Of a DNA stretch of 42,188 nt, positions 4,961 through 24,770 are shown in pieces. A model generated the notes under the pieces. The model did not search any database and had not been told where the DNA came from. It saw only the letters and a list, made by a program, of their open reading frames with translations. Each line of letters starts with the position of its first letter. The stretch's first letter is position 1. The DNA comes from Clostridiales bacterium (GTDB lineage Bacteria; Bacillota; Clostridia; Lachnospirales; Lachnospiraceae), in the NCBI GenBank assembly GCA_012519905.1, contig JAAYPG010000170.1, positions 1 to 42,188 on the forward strand, in the 5' to 3' direction. Position numbers and translations under genes: made by a program.

Positions 4961-5016
4961 TGACATCTTCTTAGCCCATAATGGCCTGTTCAGACATAAA
5001 ACAAGGAGGTGGTTGG

Positions 5017-5664
5017 ATGAAAGCTAATACGAATTACAGTGTCATGTCCGATGAGGATATCGTGGATAGGATACAAGATGGGGATCGTCCTGCCATGGAC
5101 TTCCTATTTGAAAAATATAAATATCTAGTAAGAAATAAGGCTAAGGCATTATTTTTAATCGGTGGAGATAGAGATGATTTGATTCAAGAGGGAATGATAG
5201 GGCTTTATAAGGCAATACGAGATTACCAAAGGGATAGACAGAGCTCTTTTTTCAATTTTGCCGACTTGTGTATATCAAGTCAGATTTATAGTGCTATTAA
5301 GGCCTCCAATAGAAAGAAGAACATACCGCTTAACACATATATATCAATTTACTCACCCGTAGCTGGTGGAAATGGGGAGGGTACAGAGAAAGAAACCCTA
5401 GTTGACATAATGTACCAAGATAAAGGTTTAAATCCTGAAGAATTGGTTATTGACAAAGAGAATACTAGTATGATAGAATATGAACTTGTAAGACGCTTAA
5501 GCGACCTAGAGAAAGATGTTCTTAGCTTGTATATGCAGGATTTAAAGTATGTGCAGATTGCCAAGGTACTTGGTAAGGAGCCAAAAGCTATAGATAATGC
5601 ATTGACAAGAATTAAGGCCAAGCTTAATCAGGTACTGAAGGATATAGAAAATCAGAATGCATAA
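5017..5664 (+). CDS. sigH: RNA polymerase sigma-H factor (early sporulation)
   Basis: 215 residues. Sigma region 2 spans about 20-100 (DLIQEGMIGLYKAIRDY is the typical -10-binding and core-binding block) and region 4 about 150-205 (LSDLEKDVLSLYMQDLKYVQIAKVLGKEPKAIDNALTRIKAKL, a helix-turn-helix). Both match SigH of spore formers, which starts sporulation and competence programmes by directing RNA polymerase. The ATG at 5017 follows AGGAGGT at a good distance; a longer frame from 4981 includes that ribosome binding site and is unlikely. It lies just after rlmB and just before two tRNA genes. Confidence 0.92.
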   Translation: MKANTNYSVMSDEDIVDRIQDGDRPAMDFLFEKYKYLVRNKAKALFLIGGDRDDLIQEGMIGLYKAIRDYQRDRQSSFFNFADLCISSQIYSAIKASNRKKNIPLNTYISIYSPVAGGNGEGTEKETLVDIMYQDKGLNPEELVIDKENTSMIEYELVRRLSDLEKDVLSLYMQDLKYVQIAKVLGKEPKAIDNALTRIKAKLNQVLKDIENQNA

Positions 5665-5706
5665 GCAGTCATTTTTAATGTAAAGGACTATGAGTCTTTA
5701 TACATT

Positions 5707-5779
5707 GCTGTTGTAGCTCAGTTGGTAGAGCACCTCATTGGTAATGAGGAGGTCAGCGGTTCAAATCCGCCCAACAGCT
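5707..5779 (+). tRNA. tRNA-Thr (anticodon GGT)
   Basis: The acceptor arms GCTGTTG (5707-5713) and CAACAGC (5772-5778) pair perfectly. The D-arm is AGCTCAGTTGGTAGAGC-like, the anticodon stem is CCTCA/TGAGG with loop TTGGTAA, and the T-arm contains GGTTCAAATCC. The 3' CCA is not encoded. Confidence 0.96.
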
Positions 5780-5843
5780 TATCCACTCAGATTATATAGG
5801 GTGGAGACCTTGTTCCCTATAAAAGACGGAACAATGAAAGCAT

Positions 5844-5918
5844 CGAGGTGTGGCTCAGTTTGGCTAGAGCGCTACGTTAGGGACGTAGAGGCCGCAGGTT
5901 CGAATCCTGTCACCTCGA
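5844..5918 (+). tRNA. tRNA-Pro (anticodon AGG)
   Basis: The acceptor arms CGAGGTG (5844-5850) and CACCTCG (5911-5917) pair perfectly. The anticodon stem CTACG/CGTAG encloses the loop TTAGGGA, giving anticodon AGG at 5879-5881 with G37, as expected for proline. The T-arm is GCAGGTTCGAATCCTGT. CCA is not encoded. A34 would be expected to need deamination to inosine for wide decoding of CCN codons. The last three bases are the start of a 25-bp tandem repeat. Confidence 0.93.
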
Positions 5919-5965
5919 TTTTTTGTTACCCAAAAATATACGATTTTTTGTTACCCAAAAATATA
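5916..5965. repeat. exact 25-bp tandem duplication at the tRNA-Pro 3' end
   Basis: Bases 5916-5940 and 5941-5965 are identical 25-mers, each beginning CGATTTTTTGTTACCC and ending AAAAATATA. The first copy includes the last three bases of tRNA-Pro. Each copy carries a T6 run that may end tRNA transcription. The duplication lies immediately before the promoter of the met leader. Confidence 0.95.
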
Positions 5966-5967
5966 TA

Positions 5968-5996
5968 TTGACAATGTAATTTTCATAGGGTATACT
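5968..5996 (+). promoter_or_regulatory. sigma-A promoter of the metNIQ leader
   Basis: A consensus TTGACA (5968-5973), a 17-nt spacer and TATACT (5991-5996). Transcription would start near 6003, giving a leader of about 340 nt before metN. Confidence 0.8.
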
Positions 5997-6069
5997 ACAT
6001 CCAACAATCATATCGGATTACTAGGAACTAAACAAAGGGCTGATAGAAGCTTCGGAAAGGAGTTTATAG

Positions 6070-6168
6070 ATGAGAACATCTAACATCATCATGTGCAATA
6101 TGTCTAACATGTTTGGTATGTGTGCTATGTACGACATGCCTTATATCATATTGTGCTCTGATAGATGA
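6070..6168 (+). CDS. methionine-rich leader peptide of metNIQ
   Basis: A 32-codon reading frame with a strong ribosome binding site (AAAGGAG, 6056-6062, 7 nt before ATG) and a TGA stop at 6166-6168. The peptide has seven methionines; six fall at residues 8, 11, 14, 17, 20 and 23, exactly every third codon (MCN-MSN-MFG-MCA-MYD-M). It lies between a consensus promoter and an intrinsic terminator, upstream of the methionine transporter genes. Established principle: leader peptides rich in the regulated amino acid act as sensors in ribosome-mediated attenuation. Inference: ribosomes stalling on these codons when Met-tRNA is scarce would favour read-through into metNIQ. Cys also occurs three times (residues 9, 18 and 29). 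Confidence 0.75.
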   Translation: MRTSNIIMCNMSNMFGMCAMYDMPYIILCSDR

Positions 6169-6271
6169 ATGTGGTGTTTTCATTATTGAATAAGCTCTTA
6201 TAATTTTTTATCATAAAAAGGGACTATAGAAAACCAACAGGAAGCTATCAGCTATCCTGTTTTTTTCTATA
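6158..6271 (+). promoter_or_regulatory. putative methionine attenuator (antiterminator/terminator pair)
   Basis: The 3' end of the leader frame contains CTGATAG (6158-6164), perfectly complementary to CTATCAG (6245-6251) inside the terminator hairpin. A second copy of the same 5' strand, GCTGATAG (6039-6046), lies before the leader start and is complementary to 6245-6252. If a ribosome stalls at the Met codons, 6158-6164 is free to pair and disrupt the terminator; a ribosome reaching the stop codon at 6166-6168 covers it. The pairing is short (7-8 bp), so the model is plausible but unproven. Confidence 0.55.
6226..6271 (+). terminator. intrinsic terminator in the metNIQ leader
   Basis: AACAGGA (6236-6242) pairs with TCCTGTT (6255-6261) and is extended inward by AGCT/AGCT around an ATC loop with one bulged A. 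T7 follows (6260-6266). Flanking TATAGAAA (6226-6233) and TTTCTATA (6264-6271) can extend the stem outward. It lies 57 nt after the leader stop codon and 70 nt before metN. Confidence 0.85.
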
Positions 6272-6341
6272 AACGATGATTGTTACATAGCAATAAATGA
6301 TAAAATAACTGAGATATAAAAAATGCTAGCGGAGGTGGGTT

Positions 6342-7349
6342 ATGGCTTATCAGGAACCAATGATTGAGCTGATTGGATTAGGAAAGACTTTTGAAAGCAA
6401 GAATAGTCATGTTAAAGCCTTAGAAGATATTAACCTGACCATATATGAGGGTGAAATCTTTGGGATTATTGGACTAAGCGGTGCGGGTAAAAGCACCTTA
6501 GTTAGATGCATTAATTACCTAGAAAGACCAACGACAGGGAAGGTTATATTTGACAAGATTGACTTATCTGAAGTGGATGACTATGAATTATTAAGGGTAA
6601 GGCAATCCATGGGTATGATATTCCAACAGTTTAATCTTTTAATGCAACGTACAGCACTGCAAAATATCTGCTTTCCCTTGGAGATTGCAGGGGTATCCAA
6701 AAAGGATGCTAAAAAGCGTGCATATGAACTTTTAGAAGTTGTAGGATTATCTGATAAGGCAGGGGCCTATCCAGCGCAGCTATCAGGAGGACAAAAGCAG
6801 AGGGTAGCCATAGCAAGAGCTCTAGCGACAAAGCCCAAGGTACTTTTGTGTGACGAAGCCACCAGTGCATTGGATCCGACAACCACGAGGTCGATTCTTG
6901 ACCTGCTAAAGGAAATCAATAAAAATCTTGGGATTACCGTAGTAGTAATTACCCATGAAATGAGCGTAATAGAAGAGATATGTCACCGTGTAGCTATAAT
7001 TGATGCTAGCCATATTGCTGAAATTGGTGATGTAGAGGAGGTCTTTATGAGACCCAAATCAAAGATTGCAAAACAGCTAGTATTTTCAGGGGCTAACCAT
7101 ATAGAATCCTTTGTTGGAGAGGATAAGTGCCGTATTATATTTGACGGAAGAACGTCTTTTGAACCTGTGATAGCTAATATGGTATTGGAGTGTAGAACCC
7201 CAGTGAATATTTTATTTGCAGATACAAAAGATATTGATGGAAAAGCATTTGGACAAATGGTAATTCAGTTACCGGAGGATGATATCAGTAAGAAACGGAT
7301 ATTTGCCTATCTAGAAACTAACAATATACCCCACGAGGAGGTGATATAG
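6342..7349 (+). CDS. metN: methionine ABC transporter ATP-binding protein MetN
   Basis: 335 residues, the usual length for MetN. It hydrolyses ATP on the cytoplasmic side to drive methionine uptake with MetI and MetQ. Seen: Walker A GLSGAGKST (44-52), Q-loop FQQF (94-97), signature LSGGQ (147-151), Walker B VLLCDE (167-172) and switch His in VITHE (about 205). The C-terminal 80 residues (about 255-335) form the NIL/ACT-like domain that binds methionine and inhibits transport in characterised MetN proteins. The start follows GCGGAGGTGGG. First gene of metNIQ, behind a Met-rich leader and terminator. Confidence 0.95.
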   Translation: MAYQEPMIELIGLGKTFESKNSHVKALEDINLTIYEGEIFGIIGLSGAGKSTLVRCINYLERPTTGKVIFDKIDLSEVDDYELLRVRQSMGMIFQQFNLLMQRTALQNICFPLEIAGVSKKDAKKRAYELLEVVGLSDKAGAYPAQLSGGQKQRVAIARALATKPKVLLCDEATSALDPTTTRSILDLLKEINKNLGITVVVITHEMSVIEEICHRVAIIDASHIAEIGDVEEVFMRPKSKIAKQLVFSGANHIESFVGEDKCRIIFDGRTSFEPVIANMVLECRTPVNILFADTKDIDGKAFGQMVIQLPEDDISKKRIFAYLETNNIPHEEVI

Positions 7350-7350
7350 C

Positions 7351-8010
7351 ATGTTTAGCAAGGCAGTACTTGAAATGATAGGAGTAGGTATACTTGAGAC
7401 GCTATATATGACTATAATCTCTTCGATTCTAGCTTATATACTAGGACTTCCCTTGGGAATACTATTAGTAGTGACTGATAAGGATGGGATAGCTCCCTTG
7501 GTAATATTAAATCGTATCGTAGGAGTTATAGTAAATATATTACGTTCTATCCCCTTTGTAATTTTACTTGTGGCCTTAATGCCATTTACTAGAATAGTAG
7601 TTGGTACCACTCTTGGACCAAATGCCCTGGTTGTACCCTTGGTTATAGGATCGGCGCCCTATATTGCTAGGCTGGTGGAATCCTCATTAAAGGAAGTGGA
7701 CCATGGTATTATAGAAGCGGCCCAGTCCATGGGAGCATCCCCAAGACAGATAGTGTTTAAGGTTCTTATACCTGAGGCTATGCCTTCACTGATTATGGGT
7801 GGAGCTATTGCTATTATAACCATCCTTAGTTATTCTGCTATGGGCGGATTTGTAGGAGCGGGAGGACTCGGAACTATAGCCATAAATTATGGTTATTATC
7901 GCTATCAGGTCGATATGATGCTAGTCACTGTGATTATCCTAGTACTTATAGTGCAGGGATTTCAGGAGCTTGGTGGAAGGTTAATGAGACGTTCGGACAA
8001 AAGATTATAA
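7351..8010 (+). CDS. metI: methionine ABC transporter permease MetI
   Basis: 219 residues with five to six membrane helices. The BPD_transp_1 permease domain covers most of the length; the coupling loop that docks on MetN is visible as EVDHGIIEAAQSMGASPRQIVFKVLIPEAMPSL, the EAA motif. Two such subunits form the membrane channel. The ATG follows the metN stop by only a few bases, with GAGGAGGTGATA inside the end of metN as ribosome binding site, so the two are translated together. Confidence 0.95.
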   Translation: MFSKAVLEMIGVGILETLYMTIISSILAYILGLPLGILLVVTDKDGIAPLVILNRIVGVIVNILRSIPFVILLVALMPFTRIVVGTTLGPNALVVPLVIGSAPYIARLVESSLKEVDHGIIEAAQSMGASPRQIVFKVLIPEAMPSLIMGGAIAIITILSYSAMGGFVGAGGLGTIAINYGYYRYQVDMMLVTVIILVLIVQGFQELGGRLMRRSDKRL

Positions 8011-8061: not shown

Positions 8062-8937
8062 ATGAAAAAAATCGCATTAATATTAGTAGTTTTATCCTTA
8101 TTAGTAACTGTTCTAGGAGCTTGCTCCACTGATAAAAAGGATGACAAACAGAACAATTCTGTAAAAGAGGAGAACAATCAGGGAGATAAAAAGGACGATG
8201 CTCAACCTAAGAAAATTAAAGTAGGAGCAAGTATTACACCCCATGCCGAGATTCTTGAAACTGCAAAAAGTGTATTGGCAGCCAAGGGTTATGAGCTTGA
8301 CATTGTAGAGTATAACGATTATGTTCAGCCCAATGTAGCCTTGGATGCAGGAGACCTTGATGCGAATTACTTCCAGCATCAACCTTATCTTGATCAATTC
8401 AATGCAGATAGAGGTATGGATCTTGTATCTGTAGCTATTATCCATTATGAGCCCTTCGGTATCTATCCAGGAAAAACAAAGAGTGTTGAAGATTTGAAGG
8501 ATGGTGCAGAGATAGCGGTTCCCAATGATGGAACTAATGAAGCGAGAGCACTTCTATTATTAGAGGCACAAGGGCTTATAAAGATCAAGGATGGTGTCGG
8601 CATGGAAGCGACCGTTATTGATATTGAGGAGAATCCTAAGAACCTTGTTATTCATGAGATTGAAGCAGCGCAGTTAGCCCGCTCACTTCAGGATGTAGAC
8701 CTGGCCGTAATAAATGGTAACTTCGCTATTCAAGCAGGATTAAATGTATCTAAGGATGCAATAGCTGTAGAGGATAAGGATTCCGTTGCAGCAGAAACCT
8801 ATGGAAATGTCATCGCCATAAGAAAAGGTGATGAGAATAGAGAAGAAATCAAAGCACTTGTAGAGGCTCTGAAAAGTGATGAAGTTAAGGAATATATTGA
8901 ATCCACCTATGAAGGAGCAGTTGTTCCTAAGTTTTAA
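8062..8937 (+). CDS. metQ: methionine-binding lipoprotein MetQ (NlpA family)
   Basis: 291 residues. It has a lipoprotein signal peptide with lipobox LGAC (Cys21), a Lys/Asp/Asn-rich linker (22-52) and an NlpA-type solute-binding domain (KIKVGASITPHAEILE..., FQHQPYLDQFN, VSVAIIHYEPFGIYPGK, VPNDGTNEARALLLLE, LAVINGNFAIQAGL). The mature protein would be anchored outside the membrane and deliver L- or D-methionine to MetNI. It is 51 nt after metI with a GGAGGG ribosome binding site. Substrate assignment rests on the MetN NIL domain and the Met-rich leader as well as family resemblance. Confidence 0.93.
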   Translation: MKKIALILVVLSLLVTVLGACSTDKKDDKQNNSVKEENNQGDKKDDAQPKKIKVGASITPHAEILETAKSVLAAKGYELDIVEYNDYVQPNVALDAGDLDANYFQHQPYLDQFNADRGMDLVSVAIIHYEPFGIYPGKTKSVEDLKDGAEIAVPNDGTNEARALLLLEAQGLIKIKDGVGMEATVIDIEENPKNLVIHEIEAAQLARSLQDVDLAVINGNFAIQAGLNVSKDAIAVEDKDSVAAETYGNVIAIRKGDENREEIKALVEALKSDEVKEYIESTYEGAVVPKF

Positions 8938-9235: not shown

Positions 9236-10351
9236 TTGAGAGAATTAATTAAACTTAAGCGTAATTATTTATTATTCTTATTTCCCCTGTCTTTTATTTT
9301 GATATTGCTAGCTAGAAAGAGTAGTTTCTTTGCTGAACATGTCTATGCTTTGCGTATATATAGATGGTTTTCTCAGCTAGTATCTATAATAACCGGTCTA
9401 GTACCGATCTCATTGGCAGAGATATTAATTATTATATTGCCGTTTTTCCTAATAATATTATTAATAAAATTCATTAGTCGTTTAATAAAGGATAAGCAGA
9501 ATCGAAAGATTAATGCTGCTAAAGGCTTAATTAATATTATCTGTGCCTTAAGTGTTGCTTTATTTTCCTTTACCATGCTTGGAGGATTAAATTATTATAG
9601 ATATCCATTTAGTTATTACTCCAATTTAAATATAGAAAAATCCACAGTTGAGGAGTTATACGGACTTACTAAACAGTTAGCTGAGCAAGCTAATGAGCTG
9701 AGGGCTTTGGTACCTAAGGTGGATGATAATGGTATATTTGATCTATCCATGAGTTATTTTGAACTTGCTAAAGAAGCAAATAAAGCTATGATGAGTCTGG
9801 CAGAAGAATATCCAGTATTCAGTGGGAGATACGGCCGGTCTAAGCCGGTGCTATTATCTCCACTTATGTCCTATACTGAAATCACAGGTATTTTTGTTCC
9901 ATTTACTATGGAGGCCAATGTTAATGTTCAAATATCGGATTATGCTATTCCCTATACTATGCTACATGAGATGGCCCATCAAAGAGGTTTTATGAGAGAG
10001 GATGAAGCCAATTATATTGCCTATATAGCTGGTATGAGTTCGGATAATATTGAATTAATGTATAGTAGCACTATGTTGGCTCTTATTTCTGCTGGCAATG
10101 CCTTATATAATCATGATACTAAGATGTATTTTGACATTAGGGCTATGTATTCCGATGGAGTAGTAAAGGATATACGGGCCAATTCAGAATACTGGGTTAA
10201 ATATGAGGATACAGTGGTTAGTACTATATCAAATAAGTTAAATGACACTTATCTTAAGGTAAATGCTCAAGCAGATGGCGTTAATAGCTATGGACGTATG
10301 GTTGATTTGTTATTGGCGAAATATAGAGCCATGCTGCAGGAAGAACGTTAA
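9236..10351 (+). CDS. DUF3810 membrane protein with zinc-protease-like HEMAH motif
   Basis: 371 residues. Three N-terminal membrane helices (about 10-28, 42-80 and 98-122) precede an extracytoplasmic domain. The layout and blocks such as HEMAHQRGFMREDEANYIAY (about 244-263) match the DUF3810 family. The HExxH signature and downstream Glu suggest a metal-dependent peptidase, but the family is not biochemically defined as far as I know. The start is a TTG at 9236 with GGGGGG just upstream; no nearer ATG gives the complete first helix. It is transcribed alone between a promoter and a strong terminator. Confidence 0.82.
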   Translation: MRELIKLKRNYLLFLFPLSFILILLARKSSFFAEHVYALRIYRWFSQLVSIITGLVPISLAEILIIILPFFLIILLIKFISRLIKDKQNRKINAAKGLINIICALSVALFSFTMLGGLNYYRYPFSYYSNLNIEKSTVEELYGLTKQLAEQANELRALVPKVDDNGIFDLSMSYFELAKEANKAMMSLAEEYPVFSGRYGRSKPVLLSPLMSYTEITGIFVPFTMEANVNVQISDYAIPYTMLHEMAHQRGFMREDEANYIAYIAGMSSDNIELMYSSTMLALISAGNALYNHDTKMYFDIRAMYSDGVVKDIRANSEYWVKYEDTVVSTISNKLNDTYLKVNAQADGVNSYGRMVDLLLAKYRAMLQEER

Positions 10352-11721: not shown

Positions 11722-12561
11722 ATGGATAATTTGTTTTCAGGTTTGGAGGAATTTGGCCTAAATAATCTATCAAATATAAATATATATGATGAAAAAGAAG
11801 AGGATACCAAGGATAATAAGGTAAAATCGAAGAAAGGCTTTTCTGAAGAGGATATTATTTTTGATAGGACATATACCTGTCCTGTATGTGACACGGATTT
11901 CAAATCCAAGAGTGTTAAGACGGGTAGAGTAAAGCTAAAAGGCCTAGATAGTGATTTAAGACCGAGATATCATCAGGCAGACCCTTTAAAGTATGATGCG
12001 ATCTTATGTACTAGCTGTGGCTATGCTTCATTAACAAGGTTTTTCAAGAATGTTACATATACACAGGCTGATTGGATTAAAAAAAGTATATCATCAAGTT
12101 ATAAACCTGTTGAGGAGACGGGTAACGTATATAGCTATGATGATGCAATTGCTAGGCATAAAATGGCCTTGGTAAGTTCTATAGTAAAAAAAGCTAAGAC
12201 TTCTGAAAGAGCATATACCTGTTTGAAAACCGCATGGGTTATTAGGGGGAAGGCAGAGACGCTACCAAAGGATACTCCTGATTATAAGCAGGTCTTGTTG
12301 CGCCTCAAAAAGGAGGAAATGGAGTTTATATCCAATGCCTATGAGGGATTTTCTGATGCCTTTATGAAGGAGACATTTCCCATGTGTGGCATGGATGAAA
12401 GCACTATTACTTTGCTTGTGGCAGAGCTAGCCAGAAAAACAGGTAAATTAGACGAGGCCTCTCGATGGATATCAAGAGTTCTCGTATCAAGAGATGCAAA
12501 TGATAGGATTAAGGATAAGGCAAGAGAAATAAAAGAACTATTAAAAGAGGGAAGAAATTGA
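11722..12561 (+). CDS. DUF2225 protein with Cys-pair motifs
   Basis: 279 residues. After an acidic N-terminus (1-45) come CPVCDTDFKSKSVKTGR (about 53-69), RPRYHQADPLKYDAILCTSCGYA and a long helical C-terminal region with TPR-like character (about 110-279). This is the DUF2225 arrangement. The CPVC and CTSC pairs plus a conserved Arg/His suggest a zinc site; the function is unknown. The ATG follows GGAGG. The stop codon overlaps the TTG start of the next gene, so the two are translationally coupled, suggesting a joint role. Confidence 0.82.
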   Translation: MDNLFSGLEEFGLNNLSNINIYDEKEEDTKDNKVKSKKGFSEEDIIFDRTYTCPVCDTDFKSKSVKTGRVKLKGLDSDLRPRYHQADPLKYDAILCTSCGYASLTRFFKNVTYTQADWIKKSISSSYKPVEETGNVYSYDDAIARHKMALVSSIVKKAKTSERAYTCLKTAWVIRGKAETLPKDTPDYKQVLLRLKKEEMEFISNAYEGFSDAFMKETFPMCGMDESTITLLVAELARKTGKLDEASRWISRVLVSRDANDRIKDKAREIKELLKEGRN

Positions 12562-15659: not shown

Positions 15660-15746
15660 ACTTGGAGAAATCAAGATAAACTGTATTGACAAGAACATAA
15701 AGATTAGATAAGATATAGCAGTAAACTAAATACATATTATTTTTTA

Positions 15747-15832
15747 GCTAGGGGAGCACATGCTGAGAGGTATGAATTTTTTACATACTGACCCTCAATA
15801 CTTGATCCGGGTAATACCGGCGTAAGGAAGCA
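15747..15832 (+). promoter_or_regulatory. TPP (THI-box) riboswitch
   Basis: The conserved core is visible: GGGGAGC...GCTGAGAGG, then GACCCT, then ACTTGATCCGGGTAATACCGG-CGTAAGGAAGC. This is the thiamine pyrophosphate aptamer and it stands directly before the thiamine transporter gene thiT. The expression platform follows at 15842-15873. Confidence 0.96.
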
Positions 15833-15843
15833 ATCAAGTGTCC

Positions 15844-15873
15844 CCTCCTAATTAAATTCAAGGAGGTTTTTTT
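15844..15873 (+). promoter_or_regulatory. thiT expression platform: Shine-Dalgarno sequestering hairpin
   Basis: CCTCCT (15844-15849) pairs with AGGAGG (15861-15866), the thiT ribosome binding site, and T7 runs directly into the ATG. The upstream GTGTCCCCT (15838-15846) can instead pair, with one bulge, with AGGGGAGCAC in the aptamer's 5' strand (15750-15759), freeing AGGAGG. So TPP binding should favour sequestration and shut-off, translational with a possible terminator component. Confidence 0.7.
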
Positions 15874-24587: not shown

Positions 24588-24770
24588 AGAGAACTTCCTG
24601 AGATGTTCGACATTCCTGTTATTTTGAACCTACATGATTTAATACGGGATTCCTATATTTATGAGTGGATGCCAAGCCGCCGTTAGCAGCGGAAGGCAGA
24701 AGCTTATATGCGGTTACCCACCTAGCTTAGCTAGGAGTCAAAATGCAGGAGACGGCATTTCGGGTATATA
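24588..24770 (+). ncRNA. ssrS: 6S RNA
   Basis: The terminal stem is typical: CCTGAGATGTTCG near the 5' end pairs with GACGGCATTTCGGG near the 3' end. Between are the arms of a long rod with a central bubble (TTTTGAACCTACATG..., GGATGCCAAGCCGCC...GGCAGAAGC). Size (about 180 nt), the CTGAGATGTTCG signature, own promoter and own terminator fit 6S RNA, which binds the housekeeping RNA polymerase holoenzyme in stationary phase. Exact ends are estimates. Confidence 0.85.

Follow-up and report, generated by a model that had tools for sequence, protein, structure and literature searches.

The window analysed here, a 42,188-nucleotide stretch of a Lachnospiraceae genome (GenBank assembly GCA_012519905.1, contig JAAYPG010000170.1), contains a methionine ABC transporter operon, metNIQ, recognized from domain matches (MetI scores above its NCBIfam cut-off, MetN and MetQ below theirs). 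Upstream of the operon and on the same strand lie a predicted promoter, a short open reading frame (ORF) with its own ribosome binding site, and an intrinsic terminator (Table 1), the arrangement of a transcription attenuator. Two tRNA genes, tRNA-Thr(GGT) at 5707-5779 and tRNA-Pro (anticodon AGG) at 5843-5919, both on the plus strand, directly precede this leader region, and a gene for the sporulation sigma factor SigH (4981-5664, plus strand) lies upstream of them; two tRNAs are also present upstream of metN in Herbinix hemicellulosilytica (L103). Downstream of metQ, genes for a DUF3810 protein (9236-10351) and a DUF2225 protein (11722-12561) are both on the plus strand, as are a TPP riboswitch (15740-15845; Rfam RF00059, 69.8 bits) and a 6S RNA (24592-24770; RF00013, 81.4 bits).

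The product of the 32-codon ORF is MRTSNIIMCNMSNMFGMCAMYDMPYIILCSDR, followed by a stop codon, with Met at residues 1, 8, 11, 14, 17, 20, and 23. A preliminary description of this DNA had claimed a perfect three-codon Met period from residue 8 to residue 23, a strong Shine-Dalgarno sequence, a consensus promoter before the frame, an intrinsic terminator after it, and a position directly ahead of a methionine transporter operon, and the locus agrees with all of these. The Shine-Dalgarno sequence lies 7 nt 5' of the leader ATG, which itself is 74 nt past the end of the promoter-like element. This element aligns in 11 loci of the window's subgroup, being degenerate in L015, and promoter-like sites in 5500-7000 number 8, against 5.4 expected from shuffles. 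The stretch 6210-6275 has a folding energy of -19.5 kcal/mol (z -5.8), and a T-run comes after it; a simple pattern scan for terminators listed none at the leader because the stem is bulged.

Table 1. Features of the metNIQ leader region and operon in the window
Feature	Position	Strand	Description	Basis
Promoter	5968..5996	+	sigma-70-type, TTGACA-17-TATACT; predicted	11/12 matches
Arm R0	6039..6053	+	GCTGATAGaaGCTTC; complementary to terminator 5' arm; candidate second antiterminator	folding, 7 close loci
Shine-Dalgarno	6057..6062	+	AAGGAG, of leader ORF	sequence
Leader ORF	6070..6168	+	Met at 8/11/14/17/20/23	translation, conservation in relatives
Arm R1	6070..6080	+	AUGAGAACAUC; first 11 nt of leader (start codon and next); pairs with 6173-6183	folding, 26 loci
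Arm R2a	6159..6164	+	UGAUAG; just 5' of stop codon; pairs with CUAUCA of terminator 5' arm	covariation between clades
Arm R2b	6173..6183	+	GGUGUUUUCAU; after stop codon; pairs with R1	folding, comparison
Terminator	6225..6271	+	intrinsic; core hairpin 6237-6260, T-run 6260-6266	folding, genus comparison
R3	6229..6252	+	GAAAACC plus 5' arm and loop of terminator	folding
metN	6342..7349	+	methionine ABC transporter ATPase, C-terminal NIL domain	domain matches
metI	7351..8010	+	BPD permease	domain matches
metQ	8062..8937	+	NlpA-type substrate-binding lipoprotein	domain matches

The run of six ATG triplets at 9-nt spacing was matched in none of 5000 shuffles of 5920-6341, in which the longest run was four, reached once; across the whole genome, four ATGs at this spacing occur at nine places, three of which overlap pieces of the window's leader. 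We also applied a detector that accepts any Shine-Dalgarno-led ORF of 8-60 amino acids with at least five Met within 650 bp upstream of metN. Among 77 named metN loci (about 20 of them from the window's own genus; L098, L117, and L136 were left out as too short), such an ORF was found on the sense strand at 49 and on the antisense strand at none. This corresponds to 49 in 50.2 kb at the metN slot, compared with 16 in 472.5 kb plus 4 in 189.9 kb (20 in 662 kb) elsewhere in the same loci on both strands. Within the window, the same detector accepts two further plus-strand frames and one minus-strand frame, with five Met each.

Within the genus (the Herbinix/Mobilitalea group, whose named records include Herbinix hemicellulosilytica, Herbinix MAGs, and Mobilitalea sibirica), MetN is present in 28 of 34 genomes, and a Met/Cys-rich ORF lies upstream of metN at all 27 loci with readable upstream sequence. 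One locus was excluded where the contig ends at the gene (L012), and one leader lacks its start where the contig ends (L034); the 26 leaders with a readable start are each preceded by a Shine-Dalgarno-like sequence. The locus sets overlap: the genus loci in L095-L123 are the same as those in L009-L035. The leaders follow a common pattern, M[RK]TSxxxMC...MCGMCxMP, with variations. ATG triplets in the 27 leaders (531 codons) are in frame in 145 cases and out of frame in 4, and Cys is encoded by TGC 47 times and by TGT 45 times; a frame conserved upstream of metN with synonymous variation is thus what the genus contains. All ten aligned close relatives keep Met at 8, 11, 14, 17, 20, and 23, with codons 5, 12, 19, 22, and 26 varying (an eleventh close relative, L014, was left out of the alignment for an inserted codon). 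By a simple pairwise count, the ten aligned leaders have a nonsynonymous/synonymous ratio of 0.60 across codons 5-24, which implies only mild overall constraint. Codons for the amino acid that the operon serves are therefore in excess and kept in relatives, and a similar hairpin lies 3' of the leader, before the first gene, in 27 of 27 genus loci; 99.5% of terminator cells are paired. Cysteine is the other recurrent residue. It accounts for 12.7% of residues in the genus set of 27 and 10.0% in a set of 22 chosen leaders from elsewhere, and all but one leader of each set have at least two Cys (26 of 27 and 21 of 22).

The spacing is another matter. Other subgroups of the genus have MCFNMCGMCSM or MCNTMCSMGMCCM, and a run of at least five Met at three-codon spacing is present in 11 of the 27 leaders of the genus and in 2 of the 22 chosen others. 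We thus reject the strict period as a functional signal. The period singled out in the preliminary description is real in the window and its close relatives and is a lineage-specific feature; Met richness, and invariance among close kin, hold, but the conserved spacing proposed there as a check is not kept family-wide.

A profile of the leader searched against 397 family genomes gave, besides two same-genus genomes (E 1.6e-7 and 2e-5), only listed matches at E 0.068 or above; apart from those two genomes, all of the 30 profile-match loci that were read resembled chance. Because the profile had no convincing matches outside the genus, leaders of other genera were sought by position, upstream of metN. 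The same slot in Agathobaculum-type genomes and in other members of the Lachnospiraceae holds leaders that are unrelated as peptides and again rich in Met and Cys, for instance MNQLKAMQMNMYMMNGMMMCRMSMC in Hungatella hathewayi (L155), MNQLRAMQMNMDMMNSMYMMMCC in [Clostridium] clostridioforme (L161), and MLSIRMNMCMMCGFARFSAMQR in Agathobaculum sp. (L129). At the family level, where metN is present in 60 of 120 genomes, 11 of the best 29 metN loci outside the genus have a leader (L074 offers 275 bp only), and among 20 lower-ranking loci at least five Met were found in two (L215 and L226), with four in L220; a further candidate, L218, with four Met and without a Met-Cys cluster, was judged to be chance. 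At the order level (metN in 128 of 245 genomes), the detector accepted 6 of the best 28 new loci, and 4 of these are convincing; the matches in L196 and L198 resemble chance hits. Leaders are thus frequent near the window's kin and rarer with distance. The 28 named loci that are leaderless by the detector comprise 3 in which relaxed rules reveal a leader (L134, L143, and L174), 3 with a T-box or SAM-I riboswitch, and 22 others. Outside the genus, a terminator was found only at a distance for L072 and not at all for L079, although other settings returned one for L079.

Clostridia are generally considered to control their methionine genes through SAM riboswitches, Met T-boxes, or repressors. Met T-box and SAM-I leaders, which sense uncharged tRNA or SAM through RNA structure, occupy the same slot before metN in some relatives. 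Upstream of the window's metN, neither a T-box (RF00230) nor a SAM riboswitch (RF00162) covariance-model match was found, and the leader has no credible match in Rfam, where only eukaryotic or viral families appear, at E 1.4 or more. Leaderless relatives carry T-boxes before metN at L070, L077, L156, L159, L182, L183, and L184, and SAM-I riboswitches at L127, L178, L186, L187, L188, L192, and L199. One or the other is present at 14 of 57 leaderless loci and at 0 of 23 loci with a leader (Fisher p 0.008, kinship ignored; L196 and L198 counted as leaderless, and L134, L143, and L174 as having a leader). All seven T-boxes have AUG at the presumed specifier position (two by Rfam alignment, all by pattern). 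The genus has SAM-I riboswitches in 32 of 34 genomes, preceding metK (named from protein sequence) in the five loci read. In the window's genome, 11 of the 14 T-box matches exceed the cut-off, and the sole SAM-I match is on another contig. The organism therefore owns the usual tools, yet has the leader at metNIQ.

Classical attenuators (trp, his, leu, and thr) combine leader codons for the amino acid served with competing 1:2, 2:3, and 3:4 helices and an intrinsic terminator; the window's leader has such codons, a predicted 1:2 helix, and a terminator, together with complementarity that may allow a 2:3 helix. Arms R1 and R2b can form 11 pairs, with 95.8% of cells paired over 26 loci; this helix hardly varies and shows little covariation (316 of 2000 permutations do as well). 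The R2a arm and its partner in R3 change together between clades, appearing elsewhere in the genus as GAUAAG/CUUAUC, GACGGC/GCUGUC, and GAUAGC/GCUAUC. Over 26 loci, matched R2a:R3 arms average -7.71 kcal/mol and permuted arms -5.70, with 0 of 2000 permutations as low (kinship ignored); the 15 loci outside the window's subgroup likewise give 0 of 2000, and there is no signal within that subgroup of 11 (888 of 2000) because the arms hardly vary there. The GUUUUC of R2b can alternatively pair with GAAAAC at 6229-6234. Further, an element around R2, GAATGTGRTGTTWTC, has changed little across three leader subgroups, in which it falls in different frames or past the stop, and this points to constraint on the RNA. 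Two features are unlike the classical systems, namely that the first arm includes the leader's own start codon and that one subclade has an arm, R0, upstream of the Shine-Dalgarno sequence.

Similar complementarity is found outside the genus. In 29 loci, the segment at or just past the ORF end pairs with the terminator arm at -14.29 kcal/mol when matched and -12.04 when permuted (0 of 2000 as low, kinship ignored), and the same test within each of three non-genus groups is not significant (156, 330, and 110 of 2000). Read by eye, the best duplex in 7 of 10 Agathobaculum-type loci is between the RNA coding for (F/S)-A-R-F, TGCTCGTTT, and the terminator arm AAACGAGCGGAAAGCA or a similar one, and among MNQ-type loci the best duplex joins, in about 7 of 10, a post-stop segment like GTATGGATTGTGA and TCGCAAGTCTGTG. 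The ends of otherwise unrelated Met-rich leaders are also alike (VSFARIRYSA, VIFDA, VYFPAP, and FARFSA in L215, L226, L089, L090, and the Agathobaculum type), a likeness that may be driven by RNA because the Agathobaculum-type coding RNA complements the terminator arm.

We consider it highly probable (roughly 85%) that the leader is a translation-coupled transcription attenuator that would sense methionine through stalling at its AUG codons. This reading, already put forward in the preliminary description, is supported by the conserved frame, the in-frame ATG codons, synonymous variation, the terminator, the competing pairings, and the replacement of the leader by T-boxes or SAM-I riboswitches in some relatives. 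RNA polymerase would start at about 6003, and a ribosome would load on the leader. With enough Met-tRNA, the ribosome would reach the stop codon and cover about 6159-6183, allowing the terminator to form and turning metNIQ off. When Met-tRNA is scarce, it would instead stall in the AUG cluster, where, together with queued or initiating ribosomes, it would block R1 from pairing with R2b; the freed segment at the ORF end could then pair with the terminator 5' arm, and the polymerase would read into metNIQ. If no ribosome were present, R1 would pair with R2b.

We folded the leaders with ribosome-covered positions masked and the transcript cut before the terminator 3' arm, using 26 of the 27 genus loci (L034 left out) and a mask that began 15 nt before the leader start and ended 13 nt downstream from the first base of the awaited codon. 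Without a ribosome, R1:R2, the 1:2 helix, averages at least 6.6 pairs in 23 of 26 loci, among them the window. A stall at one or more Met codons brings R2:R3 to at least 5 pairs in 21 of 26 loci, and a ribosome at the stop codon leaves it below 5 pairs in 25 of 26, the exception (L027) having a short ORF. The window, L010, L011, L013, and L014 make up the five loci in which no stall state reaches 5 pairs. R0 is present in each of them, and also in L009 and L015, which nevertheless reach 5 pairs; in the window, the printed structures have R0:R3 in every state, even at the stop codon, and R0 is probably also the cause of the failure in the other four. The masked-folding model alone would thus not switch the window's leader, and the outcome would depend on kinetics or on initiating ribosomes covering R0. 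Masking a single footprint gives weaker support, with later stalls often letting R1:R2 re-form; since R1 re-pairs behind a single ribosome, the model needs queued or initiating ribosomes. Among Agathobaculum-type leaders, the terminator arm is less paired at the stop codon than at the first Met tested in 12 of 12, and L129 and L158 have it paired in the absence of a ribosome as well. Of 15 MNQ-type leaders, 11 keep the terminator arm paired upstream (at least 0.6) at the stop codon, which counts against a simple switch.

The R0 arm may have a second role. Its pairing with R3 reaches -14.6 to -21.1 kcal/mol in seven loci (the window, L009, L010, L011, L013, L014, and L015) and -4.5 to -10.6 kcal/mol in four other loci of the window's subgroup; matched arms average -15.17 and permuted arms -13.52, with 18 of 2000 permutations as low (kinship ignored), and one U-A/C-G change was read by eye from the alignment. 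It is conceivable, though rather unlikely, that the window's subclade has two antiterminators, R2, freed by Met stalls, and R0, which would pair with the terminator 5' arm (about 11-15 pairs, ending at the Shine-Dalgarno sequence) when no ribosome initiates, so that elongator and initiator Met-tRNA would be sensed separately. If true, R0 would respond to how much initiator fMet-tRNA is available and answer the inability of a Met-starved cell to start the leader. Alternatively, R0 may act in a local hairpin.

Among rival explanations, the strong folding of the leader region (z -5.6) and conservation at the RNA level past the Met codons would suit a conserved non-coding RNA, such as an unknown riboswitch, with Met codons present by chance; the 145 to 4 bias of ATG toward the frame, the synonymous variation, the confinement of Met-rich ORFs to the sense strand, and the Rfam result make this very improbable. 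A programmed arrest peptide, in which the nascent chain would stall the ribosome with methionine or SAM as ligand and codons would not be counted, could account for non-Met residues that are nearly fixed in the genus (T3, S4, C9, and C18) and for Pro24, present in all ten aligned close relatives. However, the pairing constraint on R1 can also explain the fixed MRTS, the first 11 nt being largely kept and the third base of codon 4 varying, and the peptides of other genera have only their Met/Cys richness in common; we regard this explanation as improbable. Least probable of all is a working small protein, for instance a metal-binding peptide that lies before metNIQ by chance. MxxM and Cys spacings akin to copper-binding motifs count in its favor, but the terminator follows the ORF throughout the genus, C-terminus and length vary, other genera have different peptides, and riboswitches fill the same slot in some relatives.

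A dual sensor differs from the preferred attenuator only in its signal. Here the Cys codons would be part of what is read, and the operon would report the supply of sulfur amino acids. The strong enrichment of Cys in both sets of leaders argues for such co-sensing, as do the Met-Cys pairs in the metL ORF of Streptomyces lividans (PMC8079986), whereas the AUG specifiers of the same-slot T-boxes and the less strict fixation of Cys than of Met argue against it; we hold it as a tentative possibility, somewhat short of even odds.

The preliminary description knew of no Met-leader-peptide attenuator of this type in clostridia. That holds for clostridia in the PMC literature searched, where none was found among the matches listed. 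In S. lividans TK24, however, the short ORF metL, directly before metNIQ and containing Met-Cys pairs, has been proposed as an attenuator; its transcript is leaderless, it has two internal Met, and the authors of the report saw no clear terminator (PMC8079986). It is actinobacterial, and its likeness to the clostridial leader is one of described features. In bacilli, another report predicts His leader peptides before hisS paralogs and hisZ (PMC2965389). These, too, are predicted amino-acid leader peptides of Firmicutes whose relatives use T-boxes, and differ in that they concern histidine, bacilli, and genes of tRNA-synthetase type (PMC2965389). New within the literature searched are a family of Met/Cys leaders in clostridia, the comparative picture of their anatomy, the way in which they alternate with T-boxes and riboswitches, and a second arm located upstream. 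From the comparison of sequences, a ribosome-based sensor before metN has apparently been reached more than once, with unrelated peptides. The polycysteine leader ORFs of mycobacteria also act as attenuators through a Cys-rich leader, and differ in having Cys only, in being leaderless, and in belonging to another phylum.

Unlike the classical attenuators, the window's leader would sense an amino acid whose tRNA also starts proteins, and would do so in a clostridial genome rich in T-box matches. Methionine is a special case for leader sensors because the leader itself needs Met to start. The system thus offers a way to ask how cells separate a shortage of initiator Met-tRNA from one of elongator Met-tRNA, and its Met-Cys pairs raise the question of whether the sulfur amino acids are read together.
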